Shown here one piece after another: positions 999 through 18,202 of a stretch of 64,000 bases of DNA (the first letter of the stretch is position 1; each line of letters opens with the position of its first letter). Made by a program: the position numbers and the translations under genes. Origin of the DNA: Anatilimnocola floriformis. GTDB lineage: Bacteria > Planctomycetota > Planctomycetia > Pirellulales > Pirellulaceae. Under the pieces are notes generated by a model. The model had not been told where the DNA came from. It was given only the letters and a program-made list of their open reading frames with translations, and did no database searches. Where the stretch lies: contig NZ_JAMLFW010000001.1 of assembly GCF_024256385.1 (NCBI RefSeq), positions 3,224,001 to 3,288,000 on the forward strand. The letters are read 5' to 3'.

Positions 999-3224
999 TT
1001 ATTTCCCGGGAGGTATTGGCTCATATGTCTTTTTATCTGGATTATACCTTTCTTTAGGGGTATACACGTTCGTTCTCGGGTCATAAACCCCCTTGGTCAA
1101 TGGGTTTTTAGGCATTTCCCCAACTACGGGCGACGTCATATCGACTTTCCCAAGACCTTTCTCATGCGCGGAATTTTTTTTCAACTCGTCTTCTATGAAA
1201 GCCTGAACCATAGCGCCATATTTCTTGCTTGCATCCACCGCCTCTACTTTTGTGTCAAAAATCTCGTCCTCGTGTGGCGACAGCTTTGCAACCGCCTCGT
1301 CCAGTGTTTTTAGGGCTATGTTTATATGTTTTTGTTCATGGGCGTACGCTGACTTGATGGTGAGGGCTGGGAGACTGTTTTTCTTTATCTGATCAATATC
1401 CAGAAGAACTTGTGCGTCATACTTGACCATGAAACTGATTCTAAACCCAATTACCTTGCCGCACATTACGAAAGGTTCCGGTTTAGCGTTTACCCGCATG
1501 TTATGGAGCGTTTTACCAACGTTGCCTGCTGGAAGTTTAGTTTCGTTCCATTCTACGGAGTCCTCCGTCTTGTTGCCTCCCTCAAGGACTATCGCTTTCT
1601 CTACAAGCCCACTTGGATCCATAATCGCTATTGGATTGTTACTGGCGTAACGCGTTAGGTTCTCATCCTCTGCAGCGAACCCGATGGGATCTTCGCTGAT
1701 CCATTTTCCCGCCACCGGATCGTACCAGCGGTTGAGATTGTTTTGGAGGCCGGTGGTCTCATCGAAGGGTTTGCTGGTGTAACCGAAGAGGAGATCGATG
1801 GCGGAGTTGGATTCGTTAGTCAGGTTGCCGAACGAGTCGTACTCGCGATGGTTCGCGACGGTGGCGACGTCGGTGCCGCTGTTGTAGGTGACCAGGTCAC
1901 GTTGCGTGCCGAGGTGGTCGCCGACAGGCCAGATGACATCGCCTGCGCTGCCGAGGCTGGTGACGGCTTCGTCGGTGAAGAGCTGGTCGACTTGCTCGCC
2001 CCAGAGGTAGCGGTGGGAGAGGTCGGCGGCTGCGTTGCCGTCGAACTGCAACGCGATTTGGCCGTTCTCGTAAGCGAAGAAGGTGTCGACCGCGGCGGTT
2101 CCACCGGGGCCATCCGCGTCGAAGCTGCGGCGGATCCATTGATTGAGCGCATCGTAGCTGTTGGTGGTGACCTGCAGGATGTTATTCGAGTTGTCCTTCT
2201 CGGTCACTTTCGTCAGGCGGTTGCGGAAGTCCCATTCGTACTCGGTGACATAGCCGTTGCTAATCGCCGTCCGGGTGAGGCGGTTCCCTTCGTCGTCGTA
2301 GGTGTAGTTGTAGACTCCGTCGGTGTCGACCTGATTGTTCGGATTGACGTGGTAACCGGACATGATTCGGTTGCCGTTCTCGTCGTACTCGTACGACTCA
2401 TCCGTCGCCGTGCTGTGGTCGGCGCCCGTGAGTTGGTTCGTGTCGTCGTGGGTATACGTGCTCAAGCCATCGAGATACGAATCGATCGAAAGAATCCGGT
2501 TGGCAGCATCGTAGGCGTACTGATAACCGGCGAGAGGATCGGTTCCCCAGCCGGTCGGTGTGGAGGTTGTTTCCGCGTGCACCAGGCGGTTCAGATTGTC
2601 GTAGCTGTAATGCGAACTGGCCACGAACTCCGACTGATCGGCCGACGCGTAACGATCGAACCGCGTGTATTGCCCCAGCGAGTTGTAATTGAAGTCGATT
2701 CGCTTGGCAGCCACCACGTTGTCAGCACCACTCTGCTGAATTAGCGTCGAGAGCCGTTGCAGGTCGTCGTAGGCATACGTGTTCTGGAAGTCTTCATCCC
2801 CATCGAGAATCGCTTGCAAGAGTTCACGCCGACTGGCCGAGTTGTACTGACTGACGAACTCGATCTCTGGCGTCAGTCCGGCCAGGTTCTGCACGTAGCC
2901 GGTCACGCGTCCCAGGGTGTCGTACGTGTACTCGTAGGTCGCATCAGGATCGCTGATCTCCTCCAGATCGCCATCATCGTTGAAGGTCGAAGCAATCGTC
3001 CGCACCAGGTTACTGTTGGTCAGATTGCCAGCCTGGGACTGCAGCGGCGCGAGGTTGGCAATGGCGGCAATCGACCAACCAGCGCTGAGCAACGCATTCG
3101 AAGGGCCCGAGACCAAGGAATTTCCAGTCACGTCGTAGGACACCGTGTGGCCGCCGGCGTAATTTTCGGTGATCGGGATGCTCCACTCGGCCAGCCCAGT
3201 ATCGAGCGCTGTGATGTCGAGCAA
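999..3224 (-). CDS. RHS repeat protein with a putative metallopeptidase tip (5' truncated)
   Basis: Residues about 1-520 are YD/RHS repeats (YTYDTLGRVTGY, YSYDNLNRLVHAE, YDAANRILSID), ending in the RHS core signature (GLQNNLNRWYDPVAGKWISE, then NPIAIMDPSGL at about residue 540). The core is followed by a 200-residue variable tip, as in polymorphic toxins. The tip contains HEQKH at residues 629-633, a HExxH zinc-peptidase motif, and resembles the 'HEQGHFDI' region of DUF922-like proteins, which is my inference. Its DNA is visibly more AT-rich than the repeat region. The start is a TTG; the frame stays open upstream with sensible RHS sequence (SPGQGFRVSDLL) to a stop near 3342, with no ATG. The 5' end has therefore been lost, and no signal peptide or export domain remains. 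No immunity gene is evident downstream. Confidence 0.8.
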   Translation of the reverse strand: MLDITALDTGLAEWSIPITENYAGGHTVSYDVTGNSLVSGPSNALLSAGWSIAAIANLAPLQSQAGNLTNSNLVRTIASTFNDDGDLEEISDPDATYEYTYDTLGRVTGYVQNLAGLTPEIEFVSQYNSASRRELLQAILDGDEDFQNTYAYDDLQRLSTLIQQSGADNVVAAKRIDFNYNSLGQYTRFDRYASADQSEFVASSHYSYDNLNRLVHAETTSTPTGWGTDPLAGYQYAYDAANRILSIDSYLDGLSTYTHDDTNQLTGADHSTATDESYEYDENGNRIMSGYHVNPNNQVDTDGVYNYTYDDEGNRLTRTAISNGYVTEYEWDFRNRLTKVTEKDNSNNILQVTTNSYDALNQWIRRSFDADGPGGTAAVDTFFAYENGQIALQFDGNAAADLSHRYLWGEQVDQLFTDEAVTSLGSAGDVIWPVGDHLGTQRDLVTYNSGTDVATVANHREYDSFGNLTNESNSAIDLLFGYTSKPFDETTGLQNNLNRWYDPVAGKWISEDPIGFAAEDENLTRYASNNPIAIMDPSGLVEKAIVLEGGNKTEDSVEWNETKLPAGNVGKTLHNMRVNAKPEPFVMCGKVIGFRISFMVKYDAQVLLDIDQIKKNSLPALTIKSAYAHEQKHINIALKTLDEAVAKLSPHEDEIFDTKVEAVDASKKYGAMVQAFIEDELKKNSAHEKGLGKVDMTSPVVGEMPKNPLTKGVYDPRTNVYTPKERYNPDKKTYEPIPPGK

Positions 3225-3267
3225 ATCGCTGACGCGAAATCCCTGGCCTGGTGAGATAAAGCGTTGT

Positions 3268-3864
3268 CTGAAACTCTTGCTGGCAGAACAGCAGGAACAG
3301 CTGCACCACCTCCTCCAGCAGTGCCTCCCTCTGTTGCGGGTTCAGTTGGTGCAGAAGCATCGGGGGCAGTGTTTACTGAACCAGATGCCCGCGCAATGAG
3401 CTGCTTTGCGAGCGACTCAACCGGATCCTCGCGGTCGTCCGTGATTTGCTGGATCAGCTTCTCGACGTAGCCAAGATTGCTCTTGCCGAAGAAGATCGAG
3501 AATGTGCGGTCGTAGAGCTTGTGGAGCGTGTTCGTCGCCCAGATGTGTTCCTGTATCGCCTTGGCGAGCTCTTCTTGCAGACGCCGATGCTCACGGCGTA
3601 TCCGGCGAGAGTCGGAAGATCGTTCGGCATCATCTTCGGGCCGAACATCGTCATCACGGTGCGATACGGTGGCTTGCTGCCGAAATACGCGACTACACCC
3701 GCGCAGAACTTCTCGTCATACAGCGTCGGCCGTCCAACCGCCGCGACGGTTCCAGCGACGAACGCTTTCCACTCTCCATCCTGATCCGCCGGCAGCTGCC
3801 TGTATCTTGCCTCGGCGGGCTTCGCCTGCCTCCTCGATTTTGAAGCGGCTTTTTTCTTTGTCAT
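3268..3864 (-). pseudogene. Phage terminase small-subunit-like gene, frameshifted
   Basis: From an ATG at 3864, after a Lys-rich start, the frame reads GRPTLYDEKFCAGVVAYF and NDLPTLAGYAVSIGVCKK, typical of the helix-turn-helix part of phage terminase small subunits. Near 3560 the sensible sequence moves to another frame: ELAKAIQEHIWATNTLHKLY, then FSIFFGKSNLGYVEKL and a Gly/Ala/Pro-rich tail. A segment normally found between those blocks ('DTLYEWAxxHPEF'-like) is missing, so a short deletion explains the frame change. The tail runs directly into the truncated RHS gene. Family assignment is by remembered motifs. It may be a prophage relic. Confidence 0.6.
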
Positions 3865-3879
3865 GCCCGCACATTAGCG

Positions 3880-4215
3880 CGGAGTTTTCCACATTTCCAC
3901 ATGCTCTAATAAACAAAGAGAAACAAAATTTATTAATACGTCGTAATAGAGTAGTTGACCGATGCTCGGATTATCCGTGCGATGCCACTTGGGAAATGCC
4001 TGAGTTCGCTGCAAGCCTCTGCCGAAAAGCCCGAGTTCGCACAGTTTGCGTGTTATCCACCTCTACAGCTTGGTCTGTGGACAACCTGTGGAAGTACGAT
4101 GGAGTTGTCGGGAGTTCTCCACATCCCCTGTGGACAAAGTTATCCACAGTTATCCACATTTGGCGAAGAGTTATCCACATTTGGCGAAGAGTTATCCACA
4201 TTTCGTCCACATCGC
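3880..4215. other. Candidate replication origin: DnaA-box cluster with AT-rich element
   Basis: Four perfect DnaA boxes (TTATCCACA) lie at 4140-4148, 4150-4158, 4171-4179 and 4192-4200. One-mismatch boxes are at 3885-3893, 4053-4061 and 4115-4123, with reverse-strand ones (TGTGGACAA) at 4076-4084 and 4129-4137. An AT-rich stretch of about 50 bp at 3903-3955, in otherwise GC-rich DNA, sits beside the cluster as a DNA unwinding element would. The whole lies in a gene-free interval of about 500 bp (3865-4376). No dnaA or dnaN gene is in the window, so this could be oriC, a secondary DnaA-binding locus, or an integrated plasmid origin. Confidence 0.7.
4149..4203 (+). repeat. 21-bp tandem repeat containing DnaA boxes
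   Basis: The unit GTTATCCACATTTGGCGAAG plus A is present twice exactly (4149-4169, 4170-4190), with a third partial copy at 4191-4203. The 21-bp period is two helical turns, so the DnaA boxes face the same side of the helix. A further box at 4140-4148 abuts the array. Confidence 0.9.
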
Positions 4216-4376
4216 TTCCACAGACTTGCGGATCGGAAATGAGACGGTAATATCCCGAAGTCGGATTACCGACGGAAAACAATTTGGCGGCACCGAAGCC
4301 CCTGCACAGCACGATTGCTGGCAAGCGGTCCCCATGAGGGATCAGTGCGCACTGCAGACACGGCTTCTTTGCCGAA

Positions 4377-5102
4377 TTACGACGATATTTTTCGTTTGAC
4401 GGTTAAGTATCGCTTGATTGCTGGCTTAAACATCTTCTCCGTATATTCTTCGTCGAATTGATACTGCGCGATGCACTTACATCCAGTGTCGCACCGACGC
4501 TTACGAATTCGGACATTGATTCCACCCAGCGACATGGCGAATCGCAGAGCGCCATACGCCATGCTGAACAAATCGACTTTGTCGGAGCCCTTAAGCTTGG
4601 GGTCATCGAGCACGATTTCCTTGAGGCAACCGCCGAACGGCAACACGCCTGGCACATTTTTGAACACGATTGAATGATCGAAACGCCCCTTCCGAAATTT
4701 GTCCGTGAGGTCCTCAACATTCGTGAATTTACGATCCGAAAGCTCGTCGTCACCGCGCCAATGATACGGATTCTCTTTGGCGACCCAGATTTTCGTGTCA
4801 GGCGTCGTCAGCAGACCGAGATCGAATACGAAAAGCACGGGGCCGTAGACATTCCAAGCATGCGCTCTACGGTGATTATCGTCGGAATCGGTGAAGATGT
4901 CGTTCCAAACACCAAAGAGCTTGTCATGCACATCCGACTTCTGTGCTGTCTGCAGTCCGGAACCCTTGGAGAGGTTTTTGCGAGAGAGCAACGCGCCGGA
5001 GCGTAGGAACTCGCAGGCTGTTAGCACGCTGTTCGCGTGGTGCAACCGTGTTACGTTCTGGCTCGCAAGGACTTTCGAGATCGTCGTTTGCCTAAAGTTC
5101 AT
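4377..5102 (-). CDS. Hypothetical protein, possible DarT-like ADP-ribosyltransferase
   Basis: A 241-residue cytoplasmic protein with no signal peptide. Near the start it has LHHANSVLTACEFLRSGALL, resembling the His-containing start of the DarT/DUF4433 fold. This is followed by FGVWNDIF and RAHAWNVYGPVLFVFDL, and much later by GGCLKEIVLDDP, where the Glu sits as the catalytic Glu does before the last strand of DarT. These matches are spacing and pattern matches by eye, so the enzymatic call is inference. No DarG-type macrodomain antitoxin is adjacent; the upstream gene (5150-5761), 47 bp away on the same strand, is a different protein. The gene ends about 160 bp from the DnaA-box cluster. Its GC content is lower than neighbours. 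Confidence 0.55.
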   Translation of the reverse strand: MNFRQTTISKVLASQNVTRLHHANSVLTACEFLRSGALLSRKNLSKGSGLQTAQKSDVHDKLFGVWNDIFTDSDDNHRRAHAWNVYGPVLFVFDLGLLTTPDTKIWVAKENPYHWRGDDELSDRKFTNVEDLTDKFRKGRFDHSIVFKNVPGVLPFGGCLKEIVLDDPKLKGSDKVDLFSMAYGALRFAMSLGGINVRIRKRRCDTGCKCIAQYQFDEEYTEKMFKPAIKRYLTVKRKISS

Positions 5103-5149: not shown

Positions 5150-5761
5150 CTATGGATTTACCGGATAGTCTTTCGGGGTGATCGTCGTGTAACCGCAGTC
5201 CACCTTCAGTCGTCGGATGTTGTCGCTCAGATCGTGCCCTCCCCCGAGAATGAGAACGACGGTTCCCTTTTTCTTCAAGAGGTTCTTCACGATCGCGTCT
5301 TCTCGTTCCTCCATGAGCTTTTCGTCGATCTCGACCTTTCCATCTTTCACGGGATTCGCCTTCCGGAAGTCGTCTGCCTCCGCTGGCCGGACTTTGATCT
5401 TCTTCTCGACCAGCAACTGGCCCGCGGCTCCGATGTTGAGAGCTGTTTGCTCATCGGGTGCTTTCCGCTGCACCCGAATCATCGCCTCGAAGATCGGCAT
5501 GTCGCCTTTCGACAGTCGTTCGATGTAGACCGTCTTGTGATTCCTCAGAATCGCTTTCTGCGACTCCTGTACGGCCTTCACCTGGCCGAGAAACTCCGCG
5601 TAATCCTTATCCAGCTCGTCGCCTTCAAGGCCCGTGTCAGCGGCGTAGTTCTCTTTGCTGACGTAATGCCAGTCACGGACGTGGATGATGTGCGTCTTCC
5701 CGTCGGGAATGGCGACCTTCTCGGTTTCGATCTGTGCGAACAGCAGGAAAAGGATGATCAT
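5150..5761 (-). CDS. Secreted protein of unknown function, TraB/ChaN-like tail
   Basis: I place the start at the ATG at 5761, giving 203 residues that begin MIILFLLFAQIE, a short hydrophobic leader; the longer reading adds 33 residues of non-conserved sequence. The mature part has HVRDWHYVSKENY near its N-terminus and a charged helical middle. A C-terminal VVLILGGGHDLSDNIRR recalls the 'GAGH' strand of TraB- and ChaN-like proteins that bind haem or act as peptidases. That relation is inference. It is the first gene of a possible two-gene unit with 4377-5102. Confidence 0.55.
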   Translation of the reverse strand: MIILFLLFAQIETEKVAIPDGKTHIIHVRDWHYVSKENYAADTGLEGDELDKDYAEFLGQVKAVQESQKAILRNHKTVYIERLSKGDMPIFEAMIRVQRKAPDEQTALNIGAAGQLLVEKKIKVRPAEADDFRKANPVKDGKVEIDEKLMEEREDAIVKNLLKKKGTVVLILGGGHDLSDNIRRLKVDCGYTTITPKDYPVNP

Positions 5762-5988
5762 GGTGGGATATTGTGGTAAACGGGCCGTTCGAATGAAAGC
5801 GTTTTCCGGGAATGCTGGGGGCTTTGGAATTCGTTCAGTCCAGACATTTTCCACAGCCAATTCGCTTCCGTGACATGCGGTATTGACGCAAGTCGTTTGG
5901 TGGCATAGGGTTATCGATTGCTTCGAGCCGCGTCTATGGGTATTTGTTATAAAGAGAGCAGCGTGACACTTCTCAGGATAGGTGCATT

Positions 5989-6839: not shown

Positions 6840-7985
6840 TCAGCCCGCTCCAATTGCTGCCCAAAGCGGATCTTGGTAACTCTTGCCCCATTCCCGGCCA
6901 TAGTGGGCAAAAGCCACTTGCGGGGTGTTGCCCATAAGTTCTGCCAACGTCTCAATCGTGCAGCCCTGCCCTCCGTTCCAAAACCCGGAAAGCAACCGAT
7001 GGGCGAACGTGTGCCGGCACGTATAGCAAGTGAACTGTCGGCGAACTGGGTCGTCTTGCCACTCCAACGACTTACGGATCTGGCTGAACCGCGCGCGGGC
7101 GGTGACTCGCTTCCACGGATTGCCCTGAGGATTGGGAAATAGCGGTGCGCCCGACTCAGCGGACTTCAGTCGCTTTAGAACAAGCTTCGCCAACTCGGTG
7201 CGGACCGGCACAATTCTGACTTTCTTGGTCTTTGATGAATTCACGCGCCACAGCATCCCCTGTCGCTCGACGACCACGTCCGCATTGCGGAGCTTGGCCA
7301 GTTCGCAGAATGGCCGTAGCCCGGTGTGGATTGCTGCAAACAAAAAGTCTCGAAACGGTTTGTCGGTCGCGGTATAGATCGTCTCTTCATCTTCGGCGCT
7401 GAAGGACTGAAGCCGAGGCCGGTGTTCTGGCTTCTTGAATCCGCGGATTGGATTCCGTATTCCGTGCTGCTCTGCGGCGAAGTTCATCGCTGCGAGCAGG
7501 ATAGTGATCGCGTTGCGGCGCGTGACTGGAGATTTCCAACTTGGATGGGCATTGAGCCAATGCTCGACATGCCCCTTTTGCACCTCAGTCACAGCCAAGG
7601 CGCCACAAAAACCGGTCCAATCGTTGAGCGTACGGCGAGTTTCTTCGAGGTATTCCGCGACGAGGTTTCCAGAGCGATGCTTCGCCTCGCAGTGCAGTAG
7701 GAATTCGGAGCACAATTGGGCCACAAGCAGAGGCTCGTTTTGCTGATTGACCGAACCGGAACTTGGTTTCCAAAGTTTCTGGGATTGAAGTCGGGCGAGC
7801 GCCAGATCGGCTGCCGCGCGATTGCCAGGACCTTTAATTCGACTTCCGGCTGAGTCTCGAAGTGCTATTCGGCGTTTTGTACCTGGCGGCGTGTAGTACC
7901 AACCATCGGTTTGTTTCCAGTGCCAAGCAGAGCCGTGCGAGCGGCGCCGCTTGCGTTGCTCAGTGCTAGACTTTTTCTCCGTCAT
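6840..7985 (-). CDS. Tyrosine recombinase / integrase (second of a tandem pair)
   Basis: A 381-residue site-specific recombinase. It has an N-terminal block (GSAWHWKQTDGWYYT) shared with its neighbour, a core-binding region (about 80-190), and a C-terminal catalytic domain. Catalytic residues visible are Arg in HTGLRPFCEL, Lys in SSKTKKVRIVPV, RH in YTCRHTFAHR, and the nucleophile Tyr in FAHYGREW. The usual His of HxxR is Tyr (YTCRH) and the 'GH' box before the nucleophile reads GNT. The neighbour has the same kind of changes, so they are likely family features. Its ATG overlaps the stop of the upstream recombinase by four bases (ATGA), implying coupled translation. Confidence 0.9.
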   Translation of the reverse strand: MTEKKSSTEQRKRRRSHGSAWHWKQTDGWYYTPPGTKRRIALRDSAGSRIKGPGNRAAADLALARLQSQKLWKPSSGSVNQQNEPLLVAQLCSEFLLHCEAKHRSGNLVAEYLEETRRTLNDWTGFCGALAVTEVQKGHVEHWLNAHPSWKSPVTRRNAITILLAAMNFAAEQHGIRNPIRGFKKPEHRPRLQSFSAEDEETIYTATDKPFRDFLFAAIHTGLRPFCELAKLRNADVVVERQGMLWRVNSSKTKKVRIVPVRTELAKLVLKRLKSAESGAPLFPNPQGNPWKRVTARARFSQIRKSLEWQDDPVRRQFTCYTCRHTFAHRLLSGFWNGGQGCTIETLAELMGNTPQVAFAHYGREWGKSYQDPLWAAIGAG

Positions 7986-9163
7986 CGTGGCTTCCTCTTT
8001 GGCTGCTTAGGCTTGTTCGCTGGCTTCTTGGGTGGGCTTACAGAGAGCGGCTCACCGATTGCCGCCCACAATGGCGCCTGATAATGCTGCCCCCATTCCC
8101 GGCCGTAGTGCTCGAACGCGACTTTGGGCGTATCCCCGATCAGTTCAGCGACGGTTTCAATTGAACACCCTTTGCCATCCGTCCAGTAGCCCGACAACAT
8201 GCGATGGACGAAGGTGTGCCGGCAGGTGTAGCAGGTGTACTTGCTTCGCGTCGAATCCAAGTTCCATTTCAACTTCTTTCGCAGTCCAACAAAACGCACG
8301 ACGCCGGTCATTCTTTTCCAGGGTCGGCCCTTGGTATTCCGAAAAATCGGGAGGTTCGACCCTGGTGGCGCCTCTTTGAGAAGTGTTTCCACCAGTTTCG
8401 CAACTTCCGGGCGCACCGGAATCTTTCGAGTCTTCTTCGTTTTAGTGGAGTAAACCCGCCACATCATGCCGCGCGGCGTGCGCTCGATGTGCTCGGCCTT
8501 AAGCAACGCCAGCTCACAAAACGGGCGCAGGCCGGTATGAATAGCGGCGAAGAGGAAATTGCGGAACTGAGGTTCCAGGTTGTCGAAGATCGTTTGCTCG
8601 TCCTCGGGAGATATAGATTGCAGCCGCGGTTTTGGCGCAGGCTTCTTCAGACCCTTCAGTGGGCTCGTCACGCCGAACATTTCTTCAGCCCGATTGAAAG
8701 CCGCAAGCACGACGCTGATCACGCTTCGATGCGTTTCGGTGCTCCGCCATGTCGAGTGCTTCTCGATCCAGCTCGTCACATGGCCCTTCTTGAGCTGCGC
8801 AACTGGCAGCGCACCGCAAAAAGCACAAAGGTCATTGAGCCACGCTTGAGCAGCTTTCCAGTGCGTCACGGATATGGTTCCTTTTTTTGCCCCTTGCTCG
8901 CAGTACTGGAGGTAATCGGAGCAGACACGGGCCACGATCCACTCGCCTGGAAACACCCCATCATCGGCTAATGTGACTTTGACCTTCGCCAGGGCCTGGA
9001 GCGCGGCTGCATGGTTATGCCTACCTCGAACTCTCTCGCCGTTTTCATCAAACAGCGGCATTCGTTTCTTTGTCCCAGGCAGCGTGTAGTACCAGGCGTC
9101 CGTCTGTTTCCAGTGCCACGCTGAACCGTGCTGCTGCCTGCGAAGGATTCGCTTTCTGCCCAT
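7982..9163 (-). CDS. Tyrosine recombinase / integrase (first of a tandem pair)
   Basis: A 393-residue tyrosine recombinase, clearly paralogous to the next gene along most of its length (GSAWHWKQTDAWYYT; NFLFAAIHTGLRPFCELALL; YTCRHTFVHRMLSGYW; KVAFEHYGREWG). Arg, Lys, Arg-His and Tyr catalytic positions are kept. The C-terminus is a Lys/Pro/Arg-rich tail of about 20 residues (PPKKPANKPKQPKRKPR) absent from the partner. It is the promoter-proximal gene; its start lies 99 bp from the divergent sulfatase start. Two adjacent recombinases suggest a heteromeric enzyme or a duplicated integrase, but no clear attachment-site pair is visible. Confidence 0.9.
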   Translation of the reverse strand: MGRKRILRRQQHGSAWHWKQTDAWYYTLPGTKKRMPLFDENGERVRGRHNHAAALQALAKVKVTLADDGVFPGEWIVARVCSDYLQYCEQGAKKGTISVTHWKAAQAWLNDLCAFCGALPVAQLKKGHVTSWIEKHSTWRSTETHRSVISVVLAAFNRAEEMFGVTSPLKGLKKPAPKPRLQSISPEDEQTIFDNLEPQFRNFLFAAIHTGLRPFCELALLKAEHIERTPRGMMWRVYSTKTKKTRKIPVRPEVAKLVETLLKEAPPGSNLPIFRNTKGRPWKRMTGVVRFVGLRKKLKWNLDSTRSKYTCYTCRHTFVHRMLSGYWTDGKGCSIETVAELIGDTPKVAFEHYGREWGQHYQAPLWAAIGEPLSVSPPKKPANKPKQPKRKPR

Positions 9164-9262
9164 GCCTTACTCCCTTGGATTCAACTTGTTGACCCGGCCC
9201 TACAGCGGATCGATACTGAGCCAGCCCCTAAGTCGCCCACACGCAAATCGTCTTGGTGCCAA

Positions 9263-10780
9263 ATGCTTTCAAACTTGCCCGCGACTCAGTACGGATATCC
9301 TCGTCGATTACTACACTCATTAGCTACACTAATCTTTGCCAATGTTCTCCTCCTTTGGCCGTTTCAGCCGGCGTTTTCGAAGGAAAATGCCCCGAAGGGC
9401 CGTGTACCTAATATAGTGCTAATACTTGCCGATGACCTCGGGTATACCGATGTCGCGACCTTTGGCAGCAAGTACTATGAGACGCCGAATATCGATCGGC
9501 TGGCGACTCAAGGGATGAAGCTGACGAGCCATCATCATTGCCAGAACTGCACGCCGACGCGGGCTGCGCTGATGAGCGGACAATACGGGGCGCGGACAGG
9601 TGTTTACACCGTTGGCGGCATCGATCGCTTTGACTGGAGCAAACGGCCGTTGCGGCCCGTCGATAATGTGACCGAGTTGCCGCTCGACCGCAGCATCATC
9701 GCTCAGCAACTGAAGAACGCCGGTTACGCGACCGGCATGTTCGGCAAATGGCACATCGGCCAGAACGGCGAGCACCATCCCGGCAAACGCGGCTTCGACG
9801 AAGCCATTGTCAGCCAGGGACAACATTTCGATTTCAATACCAGCCCCAAGACCGAATATCCCAAGGGGCAGTATCTCGCCGATTTTCTCACCGATCGCGC
9901 GGTCGATTTCATTCGTCGCAAGAAGGACGGTCCGTTCTTTTTGTACCTGCCGCACTTCGGCGTTCACGCGCCACACGATGCCAAGCCAGAGTTGATCGCG
10001 AAGTTCAAAGACAAGCTCGGTGTCGGCGGTCATAACAATCCGACCTATGCTGCGATGATCGCCAGCGTCGATGAAAGCGTGGGCCGCGTGATGCAAACGC
10101 TCGATGAACTGAAACTCGCCGACAACACGGTGCTCATTTTCACCAGCGACAACGGCGGCGTGGGTGGCTACATCCGCGAAGGGATCAAGAAGGGGGCCGG
10201 CAACGACGTCACCGATAACGCGCCGCTCCGCAGCGGTAAGGGAAGCTTGTACGAAGGTGGCACGCGCGAGCCGTTCGTCGTGCGTTGGCCCGGCGTGACC
10301 AAGGCTGGTTCGACCTGCGAAGTGCCGACGATCCACGTCGACATTTATCCAACGTTTCTGGAACTCGCCAGTGCGTCGCCGCCGAAGCATGTGCTCGATG
10401 GCGAAAGCCTGGTGCCGCTGATTCGCGATCCTGCGGCCAAGCTCAAACGGACCGCGATTTTTCAGCACTTCCCCGGCTATCTCGGCGCTGGCGTCGATCA
10501 ATGGCGCACGACACCGGTCAGCTTGATCCAGAGTGGCGATTGGAAGCTGATGGAGTTTCTCGAAGATGGCCATCTCGAGCTCTACAACCTTCGCGACGAT
10601 CTGAGCGAGACCAAGAATCTCGCCAAGGAAATGCCGGATAAAGCAAAAGACCTGCACGCGCAACTTGTTGCCTGGCGAAAAGATGTGAACGCCCCGATGC
10701 CGACGAAAAACGACGGCAAAGCGATGCCAGAAAAAGCGAAAGGCAAAGGAAAGAAGAAAAAGCAGGACAACGACGATTAA
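9263..10780 (+). CDS. Sulfatase, Cys-type, secreted
   Basis: I choose the ATG at 9263 (505 residues). A longer reading would overlap the divergent recombinase, and this start gives a leader with a basic end and hydrophobic core (LIFANVLLLW). The alkaline-phosphatase-fold sulfatase domain follows: metal-binding ADDLGYTDV, and the sulfatase signature NCTPTRAALMSGQ, in which the Cys would be converted to formylglycine. Next come MFGKWHIG, the metal-binding FTSDNGG, and the C-terminal region WKLMEFLEDGHLELYNL. The tail is Lys-rich and low-complexity. Planctomycetes carry many such enzymes for sulfated polysaccharides; substrate cannot be told. No maturase gene is nearby. Confidence 0.93.
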   Translation: MLSNLPATQYGYPRRLLHSLATLIFANVLLLWPFQPAFSKENAPKGRVPNIVLILADDLGYTDVATFGSKYYETPNIDRLATQGMKLTSHHHCQNCTPTRAALMSGQYGARTGVYTVGGIDRFDWSKRPLRPVDNVTELPLDRSIIAQQLKNAGYATGMFGKWHIGQNGEHHPGKRGFDEAIVSQGQHFDFNTSPKTEYPKGQYLADFLTDRAVDFIRRKKDGPFFLYLPHFGVHAPHDAKPELIAKFKDKLGVGGHNNPTYAAMIASVDESVGRVMQTLDELKLADNTVLIFTSDNGGVGGYIREGIKKGAGNDVTDNAPLRSGKGSLYEGGTREPFVVRWPGVTKAGSTCEVPTIHVDIYPTFLELASASPPKHVLDGESLVPLIRDPAAKLKRTAIFQHFPGYLGAGVDQWRTTPVSLIQSGDWKLMEFLEDGHLELYNLRDDLSETKNLAKEMPDKAKDLHAQLVAWRKDVNAPMPTKNDGKAMPEKAKGKGKKKKQDNDD

Positions 10781-10962
10781 GCTATCACTCCACGCAGACT
10801 GCCGTCGCTAGCTCGCAATGCTGGCGACAAATTCTGGCCAATTGCTCGTGCTAGAATCGGCCCCGTATGAAATGATCGTGGCCAGCCCAGGCGAGTGCGC
10901 GCTGGGTTGGCTGCCGATCGATGAGCGGCGACATGCCGCTCGATTGCTTCAAGGAGGAAGCG

Positions 10963-12111
10963 ATGAAGAGTTTGCTGGGATGCATTGCCATCTTTGGTTG
11001 CGTGTTGGTTGGTTGCGAAACCTCAACGCCGACGGCCACTGCGCCGGCCAGCTTTGGCCGGTTCGAAGGGGCGGTCGTTGCCTCGTGGGATGACGACGGG
11101 CGGAACATGACGCTGCGTGAGTCATTTGGCTACGTGGATGCGCAGAATCGTTTTTGGCAGGCGCCGGCCGGCTCGGTGGTGAATGGCGCGTCGATTCCGT
11201 ACGGCTTTTGGTCGATCATCGGCGGTCCCTTCGAAGGGCAATACCGCAACGCCTCGGTGGTTCACGACGTCGGCTGTCACGAAATGACTGCGACGTGGCA
11301 AGACGTGCATCGCATGTTCTATGAGGCCTGCCGCTGCGGTGGTGTGGAAGAATCGCGAGCGAAAATGCTCTACTACGCGGTCTATCACTTTGGCCCTCGG
11401 TGGGAAACGGTCCATGAAACGCAAGTCGAAACGACGACCAACCCCAATGGCCAGTTGGCTCAGCGCGAAGTGACCGTGCCAACGGTCGTTCGCATCGATC
11501 CGCCGCCACCCACCTCTCAAGAAGTGGAACAAGCGACCGCGCTGATCGCCGAAGAAAACCCGGCCCCAGCCGTGATCGAACAAACCAATCGCGATGTCTT
11601 GCGGCGACGGCCGCGCGGTGGCGGCTATGGAAACAAGCCAGGCGGCCCGAATGGATTCAACACTGCTCGCCCCGGTGAAGTGCAGCCAAACTGGCAACGA
11701 CCGACCGGCGCACCGGCCTGGAATGGCGACCGCGGAAATGCCGAACGTCGCCCCAACGAAGGCCCAAACCAATTCGCGGCGGGCGGTGAACGCTCACGAC
11801 CAGCGCCGCAAACATTCGCTCCGCCGGCGCGCAGTCTCCAGGGCCCCGCCTTTCAACCTGACATGCGTGGCGCCGCCCTCAGTCCTCAAGAATCAGCCTG
11901 GGCCCAAAACATGGTTCGCCAGCACCTGGAACGGCAAACCGGCGAGCAACGCCCGGCCGAATACAACGTAGCGAAAACCGAACGTGGTTACCGAGTGCAG
12001 GTTCAGTATCTGCAACTCGACAGCGAAGGCCGCCCCGCCGGCGTATCGGGCGAAAGCACGCTGCGTTTGGGAATGGATGGGCGCGTGATGGAAATGATTA
12101 ATCGCTACTAA
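10963..12111 (+). CDS. DUF1353 domain lipoprotein
   Basis: The start at 10963 follows a strong ribosome-binding site (AAGGAGG) and gives a lipoprotein leader ending LVGC (lipobox), 382 residues. Residues about 30-150 match the DUF1353 pattern (GSVVNGASIPYGFW, then NASVVHDVGCHEM), found in phage and bacterial proteins of unknown activity. The rest is Pro/Asn/Arg-rich and low-complexity, ending in a small folded block (QVQYLQLDSEGRP). Probably anchored in a membrane facing the periplasm. The stop lies exactly at the edge of the 33-bp inverted repeat. Confidence 0.8.
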   Translation: MKSLLGCIAIFGCVLVGCETSTPTATAPASFGRFEGAVVASWDDDGRNMTLRESFGYVDAQNRFWQAPAGSVVNGASIPYGFWSIIGGPFEGQYRNASVVHDVGCHEMTATWQDVHRMFYEACRCGGVEESRAKMLYYAVYHFGPRWETVHETQVETTTNPNGQLAQREVTVPTVVRIDPPPPTSQEVEQATALIAEENPAPAVIEQTNRDVLRRRPRGGGYGNKPGGPNGFNTARPGEVQPNWQRPTGAPAWNGDRGNAERRPNEGPNQFAAGGERSRPAPQTFAPPARSLQGPAFQPDMRGAALSPQESAWAQNMVRQHLERQTGEQRPAEYNVAKTERGYRVQVQYLQLDSEGRPAGVSGESTLRLGMDGRVMEMINRY

Positions 12112-12370
12112 AGTCGTCGAACGCTCTGCGGTCGATGAATGGAGCGACCGCGCCAATTATCGCCGAAACAGCGTCAGCGACTTTCGGCGAGGGCCGTCAC
12201 AGCGCGCTGGAAATCTATCCCTAAAGAAGCTCGGCTCGCGCGAGGACTAATTCAAACGTCCTCACACCGGCAATTCACTCGCCAAAATGCCGAAAATCGC
12301 AGGCGCTCTTTCGGTGGCACGCTGCAGTTTGGCCTCGATTCATCGACCGCGGAACGGTCGACGACTTTAG
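12108..12370. repeat. Pair of 33-bp inverted repeats enclosing about 200 bp
   Basis: The sequence beginning CTAAAGTCGTCGA at 12108-12140 is repeated in inverse orientation at 12338-12370 with about four mismatches. The right arm itself folds (TCGACCG...CGGTCGA). The 263-bp unit fits exactly between the two convergent stop codons. It could be a MITE-like element or a bidirectional transcription-ending repeat pair. No clear target-site duplication is seen. Confidence 0.75.
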
Positions 12371-13296
12371 GGCAACGTTGCTGGTTTGCCGTCCGATTTG
12401 CCGCCGAGCGCTTGAAAATTGTTGTGGTCGATGCTCTGCGTGATGAACGTGACCGCGCCGTCGCCAATCAAGAAGCACGCGCCGCCCGGGTGGAGTGATT
12501 TGAAGCCAAGCTCGGTGGCCCAGTTGCACGGCTGACGGCAAAAGTCCGTCGATGACGGTTCGCAGGTATTCGTATTGATCGGGATCAGCGTTGAGGTCAG
12601 GCCGTTGCCGTTGTTCGAGCTGATCCAGCCGGTGCGAACGTGGTTCGAACAGTCGCGGCGATGCTCGCCGAAGAAAATCGTTTGCGACAATCCATCGGTG
12701 ATCTCGGACAGGCGAACGGCGACACCGGTGCGATGAAAGGGGCCCGCGAAAAAATTCGGATCCGACGAGGTGTAAGGAGCCTGAGCATAAGCGTTCCAGC
12801 CGGCGCCGGCGCTGCAGGTGCAAGCCGAGTTGTCGGTGTGAGCGGTCGGGCCGCTGCTGGCTACGTAGTTGTGAATGGCTCGGCCGTTCAGCAGTGAAGA
12901 GGTCTTTTCGCTCGGGCAGGTGTAGCCTTTGATGATCGTCGAGCCGAGCAGCGTGGTGGTACCGGGAAAAACCTGCCCTTCCGGCGGTTGGCTGAAATCG
13001 AATTTTTCGTACAGGTTCTTCTGCTCGATGAACGGCAGAATGTGCAGCAGAATGCAGCCACGATAGTTCGCCGCAGTTCCGCTCCAGATCGAGCCCGGCG
13101 GCAGCACCTTGAAGGTGTCGTTATAGTTGTGCAGCGCCAAGCCGATCTGCTTCAAATTGTTGATGCACTGTGTCCGGCGAGCTGCTTCGCGCGCGGCCTG
13201 CACGGCGGGCAATAACAGCGCGACGAGCACGCCGATGATGGCGATCACAACCAGCAATTCAACGAGCGTGAACGCAGAACGAACGGGCTTCGACAT
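12367..13296 (-). CDS. DUF1559 protein with pilin-type N-terminus
   Basis: 309 residues. The N-terminus is a prepilin/pseudopilin leader and methylation motif (SAFTLVELLVVIAIIGVL) followed by the conserved block REAARRTQCINNLKQIGLAL. The rest is the DUF1559 body, including FRGCILLHILPF-type sequence, ITDGLSQTIFFGEHR and the typical end HPGGACFLIGDGAVTFI. These proteins are massively expanded in planctomycetes and are thought to be pseudopilin-like surface components; specific role unknown. Last gene of a same-strand cluster with 13362-15283. Confidence 0.95.
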   Translation of the reverse strand: MSKPVRSAFTLVELLVVIAIIGVLVALLLPAVQAAREAARRTQCINNLKQIGLALHNYNDTFKVLPPGSIWSGTAANYRGCILLHILPFIEQKNLYEKFDFSQPPEGQVFPGTTTLLGSTIIKGYTCPSEKTSSLLNGRAIHNYVASSGPTAHTDNSACTCSAGAGWNAYAQAPYTSSDPNFFAGPFHRTGVAVRLSEITDGLSQTIFFGEHRRDCSNHVRTGWISSNNGNGLTSTLIPINTNTCEPSSTDFCRQPCNWATELGFKSLHPGGACFLIGDGAVTFITQSIDHNNFQALGGKSDGKPATLP

Positions 13297-13361
13297 AACG
13301 GCACCGGACCGTGAAGAGTTGGGAGAGGAGTAGCCGTAATGCGTTGATGATACCGCCTACG

Positions 13362-13805
13362 CTACTTCGTCGAAAGCTTCAATTCGATCGGCGGCATGCC
13401 TTTGGTCACGGTTTGCGTCAGGCCGGAATTGCCTGGTTGAGAGTACTTTTTCGGAACAAACCAGACTTCTTGCATTTTCGAAATATCGCCCGAAGTGCCG
13501 TCTGGGTTTGTCTCCACTCCCGTTCTGCGTACGCCGGTAACGATGACGTTGTATTTGCCTTCCTGGGCACCATCGTCGAGCTTCTCCGTAGTGAGCGTGA
13601 ACTTGCCCGCCGCGTCGGTGCCCTTGTTTGAATTGGCGGGACGCCCTTCCGCAACAGGCATGAACATCACGTTGGCGTCAGCGACCGGCGCGCCATCAAG
13701 CGTGACCGTGCCGGTTACCTTCACCATGGTCGGGCCGCTCGAACCGCAACCGGCGATGAACAGAACGCAAGCGATGGCAGCAAACTGAAGAGAGGTACGC
13801 ATCAT
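13362..13805 (-). CDS. Small lipoprotein with carboxypeptidase-regulatory-like domain
   Basis: 147 residues. The leader ends FIAGCGSS, a lipobox. The body (VKVTGTVTLDGAPVADANV, then GKFTLTT and GKYNVIVTG) is a transthyretin-like beta-sandwich of the carboxypeptidase-regulatory type, common as a lone lipoprotein next to DUF1559 genes in planctomycetes. Only two bases separate it from the upstream beta-propeller gene, so the two are cotranscribed. Start is one of two adjacent ATG codons. Confidence 0.88.
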   Translation of the reverse strand: MMRTSLQFAAIACVLFIAGCGSSGPTMVKVTGTVTLDGAPVADANVMFMPVAEGRPANSNKGTDAAGKFTLTTEKLDDGAQEGKYNVIVTGVRRTGVETNPDGTSGDISKMQEVWFVPKKYSQPGNSGLTQTVTKGMPPIELKLSTK

Positions 13806-13807
13806 AT

Positions 13808-15283
13808 TTACGGAGCCGGAATGTAGTTCAGCGTGTAATAAGCCATGTTGTGCAACAGCGGTAAACCAGCGGCCGACTTCACGCCTGCCGATTGCAACTC
13901 GTGTACGTGGCCTTCTTGCAGCCCCGTCACAAACAGCCGGGCCTTGAGACCATCGGCAGAAACTTCGACCTTGGTAATCTCGGGCGTGGTTTGATCGACT
14001 TCCGGGCTGCCGTAGGCGGCTTGATAGATGTAGGTGTAGGTCGACAACTTGTACGACTTCGGATCGGCAGCCGTGGCGGCGTCGACCTTTTCGGTGAAGG
14101 TCAATTCAAAGCCATCGCTTTTGGCGTTCATCTGCAGAATTTCGAACGGCGTTTTGCCAGTCCAGACCACGCGGTCGAGAGAATGCGGCTGCGTGCCACG
14201 CGAACCCCAACCGCGATTGGTGCCACCGACAAACAGCGAGCCGTCTTTGTTGAATAGCAGCGAGAGCGAGCCGGAGCCAATCCCCGCGCGGAACGGGAAG
14301 CAAGCGCCCTGGTAATGGTCCTGCACTTTTTCGAGATAGACCCGCATCACGGTGCTGTGCGTCTGATCGCCAACGAAGAGTTGGTCTTTGAACGGCCCGA
14401 ACTTGCCGCCCGAAACATCGCAGGCGATGCCCGATGCCGATTGGCCCATCTTGTTGTAGGGGAAATAAACGGCTGGCGGTTCGAGTTGCGGAATCCGCTT
14501 GGCTTCGACCATCATGCGGCTGCCGCTCTTCGGATCCTCGGGGCGTTCGCCCAGTTCGCCGTTCGTGTCTTTGTACCAGCCGTTGCCGCCGGGGTGACCG
14601 ACGAACTTACCGGGCTTGAGATGCTTCAACCCGCACGCGCCGTTCCAGGGGCCTTGGTTATCGGTATAGAACATGTCGCCGGCGGCATTCATGCCGATGC
14701 CGCCCGGCGAACGCAGCCCGCTACAAGTGGGAATGACTTTTCCTTCGGGCGTGATCCGCAGGCACCAGCCGCGGAACTTGTTCTTGCTGTCGAAGGAACC
14801 AGTGAGACAGAGAACGACCCACATGTTCCCTTCTTTGTCGAACTTCGAGCCGAAGGCGTACTCGTGGTAATCGCCGTCGATGCCCCAGGCGTCGCTCACC
14901 GTTTGAAAAATATCGGCGCGGCCGTCGTTATTCTCATCCTTCAGTTTCGTCACTTCGCCGCGCTGCGTGGCGTACAGCCAGCCATCGCGCCACGACAGCC
15001 CGAGCACTTCATGCAGGCCGCCGGCGTACTTACTGAAAGAGGCTTCCTCGGTGTTTTCGACGAGCGGCTTGTCGAGCAGGAAGATGTCGCCACGGCGTGT
15101 CGAGACCGCGAGCTTGCCGTCCGGCATCCATTCGAGGCCGCCAGCTTCCAAGCTCATGTATTCAGGAATGGGGAAGCGGAGGATCTTGTAGTAGTCGTCT
15201 TCCTTGGGGGCTTGGCCGAAGGAAGTGGTTGAGACAACGGCCAGGCAGAGGCCGCAAAGAAAGCTGGGCAAAGATCGAAACAT
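13808..15283 (-). CDS. Secreted beta-propeller protein, sorbosone-dehydrogenase/DUF7133-like
   Basis: 491 residues with a signal peptide ([18 protein letters not shown]). The body has repeated propeller blades: [67 protein letters not shown] and [15 protein letters not shown]-terminal beta domain of about 100 residues follows. It resembles glucose/sorbosone dehydrogenase-like proteins of planctomycetes that often sit beside multihaem cytochromes, as here (15455-18202). A dehydrogenase role is inference; no cofactor residues can be assigned by eye. Confidence 0.75.
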
Positions 15284-15304
15284 GATTTGTTCTCGTATTG
15301 TTAG

Positions 15305-15324
15305 CCACCGCCTTTAGGCGGTGG
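15305..15324. repeat. Perfect hairpin CCACCGCC-TTTA-GGCGGTGG
   Basis: An 8-bp perfect stem with a four-base loop, preceded by GTTAG, between the cytochrome and propeller genes. It may be a single REP-like unit or an intercistronic hairpin. Confidence 0.65.
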
Positions 15325-15400
15325 TTTCGTATCTCAAAATCTCTCGGCTTTAGCCATCCCGAACAAGCGTCGAATTGATGGCTGGCGTTTGCTGCGCATC

Positions 15401-15445
15401 AGCCCCTCACCCTAACCCTCTCCCCTGAGTACAGGGGCGAGGGAA
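15401..15445. repeat. Intergenic G/C-rich hairpin repeat (CCCCTCACCCTAACCCTC type)
   Basis: The sequence CCCCTCACCCTAACCCTCTC, then CCCTGAGTACAGGGGCGAGG, is related to the two units at 43768-43810 and 43897-43938. It contains a short hairpin (CCCCTGAGTACAGGGG). It lies between the stop of the cytochrome gene and the start of the propeller gene. Confidence 0.6.
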
Positions 15446-15454
15446 CATGATTGA

Positions 15455-18202
15455 CTACCAATCGTACTCAATCGTCAAATTCGCCTTACCGCTGGTGAAG
15501 GTGAGCGGCACTAGCAACTCGCTCTTGCCGTTGCTTTGACGTACCACCGCTTGCTGGCCCGAGGTGATTCTCACGATCACGCCATCGTTGATTTTAAAAC
15601 CGCCGGCGACTGGTTCGATCTTGTCGCCCACTCCCGCGCGGTAATTCAAATCAGAGGCGATCGCGTTCGCCGTCAGCGTAAATTTCCGTTGCAGCACAAA
15701 CGCGCCCGCTTCGCCCTTTGGCGAGGGCTCGTCTTCGATCTGAATGCCGTTCATCGAATACAAGAATGTCGGCCGACGTTTCTCGCCCAAGCGATAGCCG
15801 CCAAACTGATAACCTAGTTCCTTGGCTTTTCCCTTCGGCCAGGCTTCGGCAGCGCTCGGCAACGAGGCGAATGGCACGCCGTCGGGAAGCTTTACGACGT
15901 TGTCGCCGAGCGGCGGTTCGTAGCCCTGGCCGCGGCCGTTCCAGTGTCGCGCGGCATCCATGAAGCCGTTGTGCCAGATCATGGCGAGCCGTAGCTCGTT
16001 GGCATCGAAGGCGAGGTTCAGCTTCTCAGGATAACCCACCCCGATCGCGCGCGAGCCGGCGCCTTCGATGAAGTTGCGATACATAATCGCCTCATCGAAA
16101 GCGATGAGCTCGATGCCGCCAGTCACGAGTCCCGAGGGGAGCGTCGCTTTGTTTCCATCCGACAGATACGCCCAGATCGAACGAATCTGCTTCGGTGTGC
16201 TGCCGTCGAGAATCATCGGCAACTGCGTCTCGCCGTTTGGCCAGCCGCCGGGCATGCGGGTGCCGGGGCGATAGGCCTGCGGGTTGATCAGGTAATGATA
16301 GAACCAATCGTCGCGGAGACGCTTGGTCATGGTCGTCAGGCTCAAGGCTTGAATACCCGTCGACTTTTTATCGGCGAACGTGTGGCACTTGATGCACGAC
16401 ATGCCTTGCGCGCCGACCAGGCGACGACCCACGGCTTTGAACTTTTTATCCTCGTCATCAATATCGATCTTCGGCGACGGCTTGATCAGCCCTTCGTCGC
16501 TCTTCTCAATCGCTGCGACCAGTGTGTTCACATTCGAGAGACCGAACTTCGGCATCCGCGTGAACATGTAAGGCCGATCCTTCGCTCCCTGTTCCATCAC
16601 GGTCTTCAGCCATTCGCTCTTGAGCTTGGCGCCAGCGCCGGTGAGGGACGGTGGAATGCGGCCTTCGTCTCCCATTTCCGGCATGTCGGATTTGAAGTGC
16701 GGGTTGCGGGCTTCTTCAACGCCGCCGAGCTCACCACGCGTGTGACAGGCGATGCAATTGAAGCGAACCATGTTCAAACTGACTTGCTGCGGTTCGGTGA
16801 GGGGAGCGATTTGCTTTTTGGCCGTCGACAACGCAGCGCCGAGGGCGGCTTTTTGCCGATCGTCGAGTGCATAGCGAGGTGACTTCGGCGGCGATTCGCT
16901 CAAGCAACCGCCGACGCCCTTCAGATCGGCGAGTGCTGTCGCTGCATTCAACGGCTTGGCTTTGACCAGCTCTTTGTCGATCGTCAGCGAATGGCAACTC
17001 GCGCAGCCGAGCGAAATGAAATGCTCGCGCCCCTTGGCGACGAGCTCCTGCTTTACTTGGAATGGCTCTTCCGCCGGCTTCGTCGACTTTGGCGTTGGCG
17101 CGACGACCAGCGTCGCTAATTCTTGCGGCGGCTTGCCCTTGGCTTCGAACAGCACCGACAGCTCTTCGCCACCGCTGTTTTCGAAGTATTCGACCACCAC
17201 GCTGTGGAGCCCTGCCGTTAGCTTGAGCGGCTTTCGCTTCTGGCTGAAGGGATGCACGCCGTCGTTGTCGATCACCACCTTGCCATCGATCGACAGCCGC
17301 GAACCGTCGTCGCTGCCGAGGAGAAAGAGCATGTCGGTGTCGGCATCGACCTTGATCGTGCCATCGAAACGGAGGGCAAAGCCGTCCTTTTTCTTGGCGG
17401 GTTTCAAATCGAACGATTCGGCGTCACCGACGGCCTTCGGCGTGAGCTTGGTGAAGTCGGGAAGGTTGTTCCAGTTTCCCTCGTAGTACGAATACTGCAG
17501 GCCAGCCGCGACATCGAGATCGTTCAGCAGAAACGAAGCAACATCTCGGGCTTCCGTCGGATTCAGATTGAGATGCGGCATGCGGCCGCTCGGACGAACA
17601 GCCAGTGGATTCTCGAGAAAGTCCGTCAGGCCGGAGAGCGTGTATTTGCGCGACGGAGTGCCGATGGGAATCGATGTTGGCAGCGCGGCCGGCGGATTCT
17701 CGGCAGGCCGCGGATCGTGACAGGCGAGACAGCCAATCGAGTGATAATAAGCTTCGCCGCGAATCACCCCGCCACGAAGAGGCGCGGTATCGATCGTCGT
17801 GCCGGTAGTCGCGAGGAAGTGAACGATCGCTTCGACAATGGGCGTTCGTTCCGCTTCGGGAATGCCTGCGAGAGCGTTCGGCATCGTCGTGCCGGGCTTG
17901 ATCTTCTGCGGATCCATGAGGAATTTCAACAAGTATTGCGGCCGCACACGCGTACCCACGGTGTCGAGCACGGGGGCCTGCTTCTTCTGCAGATGGGCGG
18001 CGAGCGAAGTATCTGCAGTGTGGCAGCTCGTGCAGTTGAGTTCGCCCAGCAGCAGATTTCCCGCTGCGACTGCATCTTGTGCGGTGGCGTGATAGCGCTC
18101 GAAAGGAATGACGCGCGGCGGTACATCAGCAGCGCGAAGAACCGGATTCAGGCCGGCGATCAGGAGGGCCGAACCTAATAGTAAACCGAAGCGACAAACC
18201 AT
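15455..18202 (-). CDS. Secreted five-haem c-type cytochrome with PA14 domain
   Basis: I choose the ATG at 18202 (915 residues), which gives a clean signal peptide (CRFGLLLGSALLIAGLNP). Five CxxCH haem sites are visible: CTSCH, CLACH, CASCH, CIACH and CIKCH. Between the second and third lies a PA14 carbohydrate-binding-type domain (GLQYSYYEGNW ... DMLFLLGSDDGSRLSIDGK). After the haem domains the C-terminal 200 residues form a beta-rich domain of unknown function. Such proteins are a planctomycete hallmark and probably act in the periplasm in electron transfer linked to carbohydrate oxidation. It is upstream of, and likely cotranscribed with, the propeller protein. Confidence 0.88.
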   Translation of the reverse strand: MVCRFGLLLGSALLIAGLNPVLRAADVPPRVIPFERYHATAQDAVAAGNLLLGELNCTSCHTADTSLAAHLQKKQAPVLDTVGTRVRPQYLLKFLMDPQKIKPGTTMPNALAGIPEAERTPIVEAIVHFLATTGTTIDTAPLRGGVIRGEAYYHSIGCLACHDPRPAENPPAALPTSIPIGTPSRKYTLSGLTDFLENPLAVRPSGRMPHLNLNPTEARDVASFLLNDLDVAAGLQYSYYEGNWNNLPDFTKLTPKAVGDAESFDLKPAKKKDGFALRFDGTIKVDADTDMLFLLGSDDGSRLSIDGKVVIDNDGVHPFSQKRKPLKLTAGLHSVVVEYFENSGGEELSVLFEAKGKPPQELATLVVAPTPKSTKPAEEPFQVKQELVAKGREHFISLGCASCHSLTIDKELVKAKPLNAATALADLKGVGGCLSESPPKSPRYALDDRQKAALGAALSTAKKQIAPLTEPQQVSLNMVRFNCIACHTRGELGGVEEARNPHFKSDMPEMGDEGRIPPSLTGAGAKLKSEWLKTVMEQGAKDRPYMFTRMPKFGLSNVNTLVAAIEKSDEGLIKPSPKIDIDDEDKKFKAVGRRLVGAQGMSCIKCHTFADKKSTGIQALSLTTMTKRLRDDWFYHYLINPQAYRPGTRMPGGWPNGETQLPMILDGSTPKQIRSIWAYLSDGNKATLPSGLVTGGIELIAFDEAIMYRNFIEGAGSRAIGVGYPEKLNLAFDANELRLAMIWHNGFMDAARHWNGRGQGYEPPLGDNVVKLPDGVPFASLPSAAEAWPKGKAKELGYQFGGYRLGEKRRPTFLYSMNGIQIEDEPSPKGEAGAFVLQRKFTLTANAIASDLNYRAGVGDKIEPVAGGFKINDGVIVRITSGQQAVVRQSNGKSELLVPLTFTSGKANLTIEYDW

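Follow-up and report, generated by a model that had tools for sequence, protein, structure and literature searches.

Clusters of DnaA boxes in bacterial genomes are often taken to mark the chromosome origin. In phages, packaging signals lie upstream of the gene for the small subunit of terminase (terS) or at genome ends, and the cos region of phage lambda carries repeats directly upstream of Nu1, its small terminase gene; these repeats are terminase sites and differ in sequence from the boxes described here. One published report describes a phage origin, predicted by software, with an AT-rich region and DnaA boxes (PMC11512268). Our search of open-access titles and the opening parts of abstracts, which cannot prove absence, returned no description of DnaA boxes upstream of phage terminase genes, and such an arrangement may be undescribed.

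Here we analyse a window of 64,000 nucleotides (the whole stretch of DNA presented above) from the planctomycete Anatilimnocola floriformis, in which an array of DnaA boxes had been proposed as the chromosomal replication origin. We argue instead, with a probability that we put at just under 0.6, that the array and its AT-rich element belong to a type found in many tailed phages at the packaging end, 5′ of terS, and that a degraded prophage left them in the chromosome. As a chromosomal feature, the array is a variant of known things, namely a phage element and a DnaA-box cluster.

Anatomy and neighbourhood of the array

The array consists of four perfect copies of the DnaA box TTATCCACA within 61 bp, accompanied by five one-mismatch boxes on both strands (Table 1), just as the original prediction had described it. 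Successive perfect boxes are spaced by 10, 21 and 21 bp, so that the proposed 21-bp spacing holds for two of the three intervals and fails for the first; a 21-bp unit, AGTTATCCACATTTGGCGAAG, is present in two exact copies inside the array. The AT-rich element of 50 bp that had been placed at 3903–3955 is also there, and its minimum is lower in GC content than all 50-mers of the window sampled at 5-base steps. A search near the array for DnaA-trio motifs found TAA/TAG runs of two units only, at 3907, 3935 and 3944. Phased DnaA boxes next to an AT-rich stretch are, as far as sequence can tell, an origin-like anatomy, in which the unwinding itself is a prediction.

Chance was rightly dismissed as a source of the cluster. 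Nine boxes with at most one mismatch fall within 400 bp at the array, against no more than two in any of 300 simulated 64-kb sequences or of 80 stretches of 20 kb sampled from the genome. It is this clustering that exceeds chance by far; the number of boxes in the whole 64-kb window does so modestly (12 against a mean of 5.66 after shuffling, with 12 or more in 3 of 100 shuffles). The 8.93-Mb assembly contains 28 perfect boxes in all, every one of which was placed, and the four in the window are their sole group.

Table 1 Features around the DnaA-box array (positions in the window)
Feature	Position	Strand	Basis or remark
RHS-repeat gene	999..3224	−	At the place expected for the large terminase gene (terL); regarded as the left limit of the relic
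Open stretch overlapping the terS-like ORF in another frame	3191..3715	−	No PHROG match of its own
terS-like ORF	3454..3864	−	Matches, in its N-terminal part, to PHROG 3064 and to terS of Citrobacter phage K1M
Five one-mismatch DnaA boxes	3885(+), 4053(+), 4076(−), 4115(+), 4129(−); span 3885..4137	both	Motif match
AT-rich element	3907..3956		Minimum 50-mer, GC 0.22; separates the terS-like ORF from the perfect array
Four perfect DnaA boxes	4140, 4150, 4171, 4192; span 4140..4200	+	Motif match
241-aa protein	4377..5102	−	Right of the array; the one relative found (34% identity) is in a Clostridiales contig
236-aa protein	5150..5860	−	ORF scan
Tyrosine recombinase (integrase) 1	6840..7985	−	Presumed part of the same element
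Tyrosine recombinase (integrase) 2	7982..9163	−	Tandem with integrase 1

A terS-like open reading frame (ORF) has the array on its 5′ side: from its start, the closest box is about 20 bp away and the perfect array 276 bp. Most of the boxes are on the strand opposite to the ORF. The terS assignment is based on about 58 residues. These match the ‘terminase’ family PHROG 3064 (E = 1.1e-5), and 57 aa align at 35% identity with the small terminase subunit annotated in Citrobacter phage K1M, which has a PHROG 3064 match of its own (9e-33). The ORF had no match in Pfam or NCBIfam, none of note among solved structures and no relative among viral_contigs; a search with its N-terminal part across 196 genomes of the order returned, besides the source genome, one weak match (G058, E = 6e-4). 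Downstream of this N-terminal part the frame appears to be broken, and the open stretch that overlaps it in another frame is possibly the remainder of the gene. Among ten ORFs scanned beside the terS-like ORF there was no terL, portal or capsid gene. What follows the terS-like ORF is an RHS gene and not terL, and the locus is therefore at most a relic.

The two tandem tyrosine recombinase genes lie 2.6–5 kb from the array, and we infer that the first of them is part of the same element. No element borders were obtained from relatives of the 241-aa protein or from a plasmid search with integrase 2, and a search of the 64-kb window returned no tRNA gene. Synteny with G187, a genome of the same genus, did not yield an empty site, as segments of the window and of the adjoining 20 kb on the left have their matches there in scattered positions.

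Several other sequences in and around the window have counterparts in G187. The recombinase pair (6840–9163) has two there (G187:C1:5560622-5563287 and 2951240-2953843) and is apparently a recurring unit. In the window and in the leftward flank, RHS sequences match identical places near 3.57 Mb of G187, and a frame of 3,029 aa (7436–16525 of the flanking stretch) lies about 3.5 kb left of the window. Inside a pilin-like gene, about 160 bp at 13090–13281 match some thirty places in G187 at 74–83%, and this segment is probably the conserved N-terminal part of a large gene family.

Position relative to dnaA and GC skew

The genes flanking the array had been noted not to be dnaA and dnaN. This is correct: neither was seen near the array, which is on contig C1, and the two dnaA genes of the source genome are both on contig C2 (1245429–1246514, minus strand, and 1616608–1616808, plus strand). 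By C-terminal domain search, two DnaA paralogues, one short (frames of about 357–435 aa) and one long (about 504–628 aa), are present in all eight of the Pirellulales-family genomes searched. The shorter dnaA of the source genome stands between a nifS-like cysteine desulfurase gene and dnaN, in the order nifS–dnaA–dnaN; we take both neighbours to be what these names say from their translations. On the assumption that C1 and C2 form one circle, which leaves out 15 smaller contigs, the short dnaA lies 0.47–0.49 of the circle away from the array in either orientation of C2.

A relative of the short DnaA was found in 99 of the 100 family genomes searched. G187 has the dnaA–dnaN order, and in two other genomes of the family, G231 and G121, nifS–dnaA extends across the ends of single-contig records, with DnaA boxes at the nifS end and in the nifS–dnaA gap. 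G428, which is a planctomycete from outside the family, has boxes on both strands in a dense cluster about 150–420 bp upstream of a dnaN-like frame (G428:C1:4242800-4244000). From the boxes at nifS and dnaA in the former two and the cluster beside the dnaN-like frame in the latter, dnaA–dnaN is the likely origin site in the phylum.

The source genome, however, has no box cluster at that locus: its 142-bp nifS–dnaA gap contains no box within one mismatch and one two-mismatch site, CTGTCCACA, and near dnaN there is only TCATCCACA. Because recognisable DnaA boxes are nearly lacking from the nifS–dnaA gap of the source genome and from the dnaA–dnaN gaps of both the source genome and G187, the origin predicted for the genus is hidden from motif searches. 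Thirty dnaA loci of the family (from the 99 genomes with a match) have 0 to 5 boxes, counting up to one mismatch, per 2.5–4.1 kb; boxes are few at many of these loci, and an origin there would therefore be unrecognisable by boxes.

A comparison with other Pirellulales had been suggested as a check on the array. G187, one genome of the same genus, has no match to positions 3700–4700 of the window and no box pair. Triple TTDTCCACA boxes occur in 4 of 146 genomes of the order, source genome included, and triple TTRTCCACA boxes in 5 of 392 genomes of the phylum. None of the other arrays in the order (G089, G090 and G022) is like that of the window; the one in G090 lies inside a long HTH-like frame, and the one in G022 comes after a frame that is presumably FtsK-like.

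GC skew is weak in this genome. A free fit with two breaks placed them at 3.43 Mb of C1 and 1.54 Mb of C2 and was equalled by 187 of 300 shuffles, which makes it non-significant; free fits did not improve with balanced third-position skew (111 of 300) or gene strand (234 of 300). For G187, the fits were equalled by 172 (GC skew), 54 (third position) and 6 (gene strand) of 300 shuffles, and the gene-strand fit, which alone stood out, placed its breaks away from dnaA, at 1.35 and 4.5 Mb. When the break on C2 was fixed at the short dnaA, mean skew changed from −0.012 (12 samples) to +0.009 (8 samples; Mann–Whitney P = 0.0096), and when the break on C1 was fixed at the window, it changed from +0.004 (32 samples) to −0.005 (28 samples; P = 0.07). 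Both tests are weak, with uncorrected P values and a sampled curve that had been seen beforehand, and their breaks are a gene and the window, not fitted positions. Instead of the GC-skew minimum anticipated for an origin, the array thus shows a trend towards a maximum. If anything, the skew pattern has the origin near dnaA and the terminus near the window, not the reverse.

Similar arrays in phages

Three perfect boxes with gaps of 5–20 bp occur in at least 120 stretches of IMG/VR, 80 of which were turned into loci; a second pattern added 61 loci outside this first set, giving a total of 141 that were chosen by three perfect boxes alone. In the first 80 loci, box spacings peak at 11–12 and 21–22 bp, where the pattern itself required 14–29 bp and the window has 10, 21 and 21 bp, and 62 of the arrays are intergenic by a greedy ORF call. 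BLAST grouping of 103 of the 135 listed neighbour proteins yielded one cluster of 20, termed terA, and several smaller ones. All five founding members of one of the clusters, terB, match terminase-small-subunit PHROGs. RusA PHROGs were matched by five proteins of the neighbour set, and Pfam RusA by one member of another five-member cluster. Scans of four terA members against Pfam and PHROGs gave no terS match and a single weak one to DUF5681 (E = 0.002, below the cut-off). We call terA terS-like by its position, because a large-terminase-like frame follows it in several loci; one such adjoining frame matched 141 phage records, with annotated large terminases among the named phages. A terA-type query found no relative among named phages and a terB-type query one weak match.

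With HMMs of our own, built from terA and terB of the first set, a terS or terS-like gene was identified in 48 of the 141 loci, and 93 have neither family. The array lies on the 5′ side of this gene, at −50 to 700 bp, in 44 of the 48 loci, and within 700 bp downstream in none. The first set, which is partly circular because the HMMs came from it, has the gene in 30 of 80 loci, with the array no more than 700 bp 5′ of it in 26 of the 30 (one overlapping the start by 45 bp) and within 700 bp downstream in 0 of the 30; random placement gave a mean of 3.4 and a maximum of 12. The second set, which is not circular in this way and includes some close relatives, has the gene in 18 of 61 loci and the array upstream in all 18, for which the random mean was 1.9 and the largest value in 2,000 trials 8. 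Random placement was uniform across the locus, intergenic or not. The 48 proteins are not independent of one another and fall into 34 clusters at 90% identity, 17 at 70% and 10 at 50%.

The 44 loci with an upstream array comprise 37 with terA and 7 with terB. Boxes are mostly opposite to the terS strand in 33 of them and mostly on the same strand in 11. The most AT-rich 50-mer of the gap between array and gene has a median quantile of 0.002 within its locus across the 44; among the seven terB loci, the quantile is below 0.01 in only two. Against the terS-like ORF of the window, the two HMMs gave E values of 0.04 and 0.07, which we count as no match.

Box arrays were also found in named phages. 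Among the matches listed (35 records matched), 10 of 20 are 300 bp or less from the end of the record; with duplicates removed, 7 of the 16 viruses listed have the match near the record end, at least one of them a microvirus. Shigella phage A7 (four perfect boxes), phiEap-1 (five), Kp7 (five) and Arthrobacter phage Seahorse (three) carry their boxes within about 45–160 bp, all at about 225 bp or less from the record end; those of P483, nasanit and BD5 are placed elsewhere in their records. The arrays of the Berlinviruses P483 and A7 lie about 700 bp past the 3′ end of terL, and the Berlinvirus arrangement therefore differs from the one upstream of terS. We know of no need for DnaA in T7-like phages, and thus lean, in the T7-like case, to DnaA capture over initiation. 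The 5.3 kb of phage K1M that were read contain isolated one-mismatch boxes only. A likeness of the array to gokushoviruses and Butyrivibrio phages (eight records) was dismissed, being mostly that of the boxes themselves.

Discussion

The array precedes a broken terS-like gene and is far from dnaA–dnaN, and for these reasons it is likely to be a leftover virus element. Array, AT-rich stretch and terS-like gene stand in the window in the same order and orientation as in the phage contigs, where the arrangement recurs. The two tandem integrases and the absence of the array from G187 fit this reading as well. In a phage that carried it, host DnaA would bind the helically phased boxes, and its binding would open the AT-rich stretch, at which the excised and circularised phage could begin replication; in an alternative role, the boxes may withdraw DnaA from the host. 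In the present genome, the relic would titrate DnaA at most. A wider reading, for which we would give slightly less than even odds, is that one module recurs at the packaging end of unrelated tailed phages, namely a phased array of perfect host-DnaA boxes, often with an AT-rich stretch, placed upstream of terS or near the terminus. It would be an oriC mimic that starts phage replication through host DnaA or, as the first DNA to enter, seizes DnaA, and the chromosome would hold a fossil of it on almost the opposite side from its own dnaA. The majority of the phage loci were identified through a terS-like family without a library match, which has led us to lower our support for both the relic and the phage module and to raise that for the alternatives slightly.

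The reading first put forward, a chromosomal oriC, is poorly supported. A working origin that recently moved away from dnaA, on which DnaA loads and from which forks leave both ways, would agree with the fact that perfect boxes cluster nowhere else in the genome and that an AT-rich element lies alongside, and we retain it as an unlikely explanation because the nifS–dnaA–dnaN locus of the source genome is without a box cluster of its own. That absence is no proof of a lost origin, however, given how few boxes there are at other dnaA loci of the family. The dnaA–dnaN locus is about half a genome away on another contig; boxes occur at the nifS end and in the gap to dnaA in G231 and G121 and as a cluster upstream of the dnaN-like frame in G428; the array is absent from G187; and skew, negative before dnaA, is positive after it (P = 0.0096), and at the window a positive skew gives way to a negative one (P = 0.07), the wrong way round for an origin here. 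The absence from G187 also weighs against a site at which the host titrates or regulates DnaA, like datA or DARS of Escherichia coli. We consider such a site quite unlikely, although the array holds 4 of the 28 perfect boxes of the genome and its boxes are intact beside a terS-like frame that is broken.

The position of arrays upstream of terS-like genes and near record ends is also what a pac or cosB packaging signal would have, with terminase as the binding protein and the likeness to DnaA boxes incidental. Yet the identical 9-mer stands beside two protein families that do not group with each other and again in T7-like phages; a single host protein conserved across bacteria would be the simpler common binder. 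We accordingly prefer DnaA to terminase in this role and hold a packaging signal to be rather improbable. The original prediction had further allowed for the origin of an integrated plasmid or phage, and the phage part of this suggestion fits better. An iteron-type plasmid origin could explain 21-bp repeats that contain DnaA boxes, with recombinases nearby, but the neighbours scanned include no replication initiator (rep) gene and both the array and integrase 2 lack a match in 72,556 plasmid records, which makes such an origin very unlikely.

Taking this DnaA-box cluster for the chromosome origin would misplace the origin by nearly half a genome from its likely site, which calls for care when origins are predicted in planctomycetes and in other genomes with weak skew. 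The phage-wide arrangement is a more interesting result than the chromosomal array. Should it hold, it would link the packaging end of many phages to a host initiator, and the prediction would be either a phage origin that depends on DnaA and is undescribed or a means of capturing DnaA from the host.

Among known systems, bacterial oriC, represented in this phylum by the nifS–dnaA–dnaN locus and the G428 cluster, resembles the array in its phased perfect boxes, its variants on both strands and its AT-rich stretch; unlike oriC, the array does not adjoin dnaA or dnaN, is absent from G187 and lies on the side of the terminus that the skew suggests. The cos region of lambda is similar in having repeats just upstream of a small terminase gene, but the repeat sequences differ. 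The arrays of the T7-like phages A7, phiEap-1 and Kp7 and of Seahorse have three to five perfect boxes, in keeping with the window, but no terS in the stretches read. Although the gene in the window belongs to another terS family (PHROG 3064) than those of the IMG/VR loci, is broken in frame and is followed by an RHS gene instead of terL, the window has in common with the IMG/VR arrays upstream of terS and terS-like genes the spacing of the boxes, the AT-rich gap, the position 5′ of the gene and the boxes on the opposite strand.
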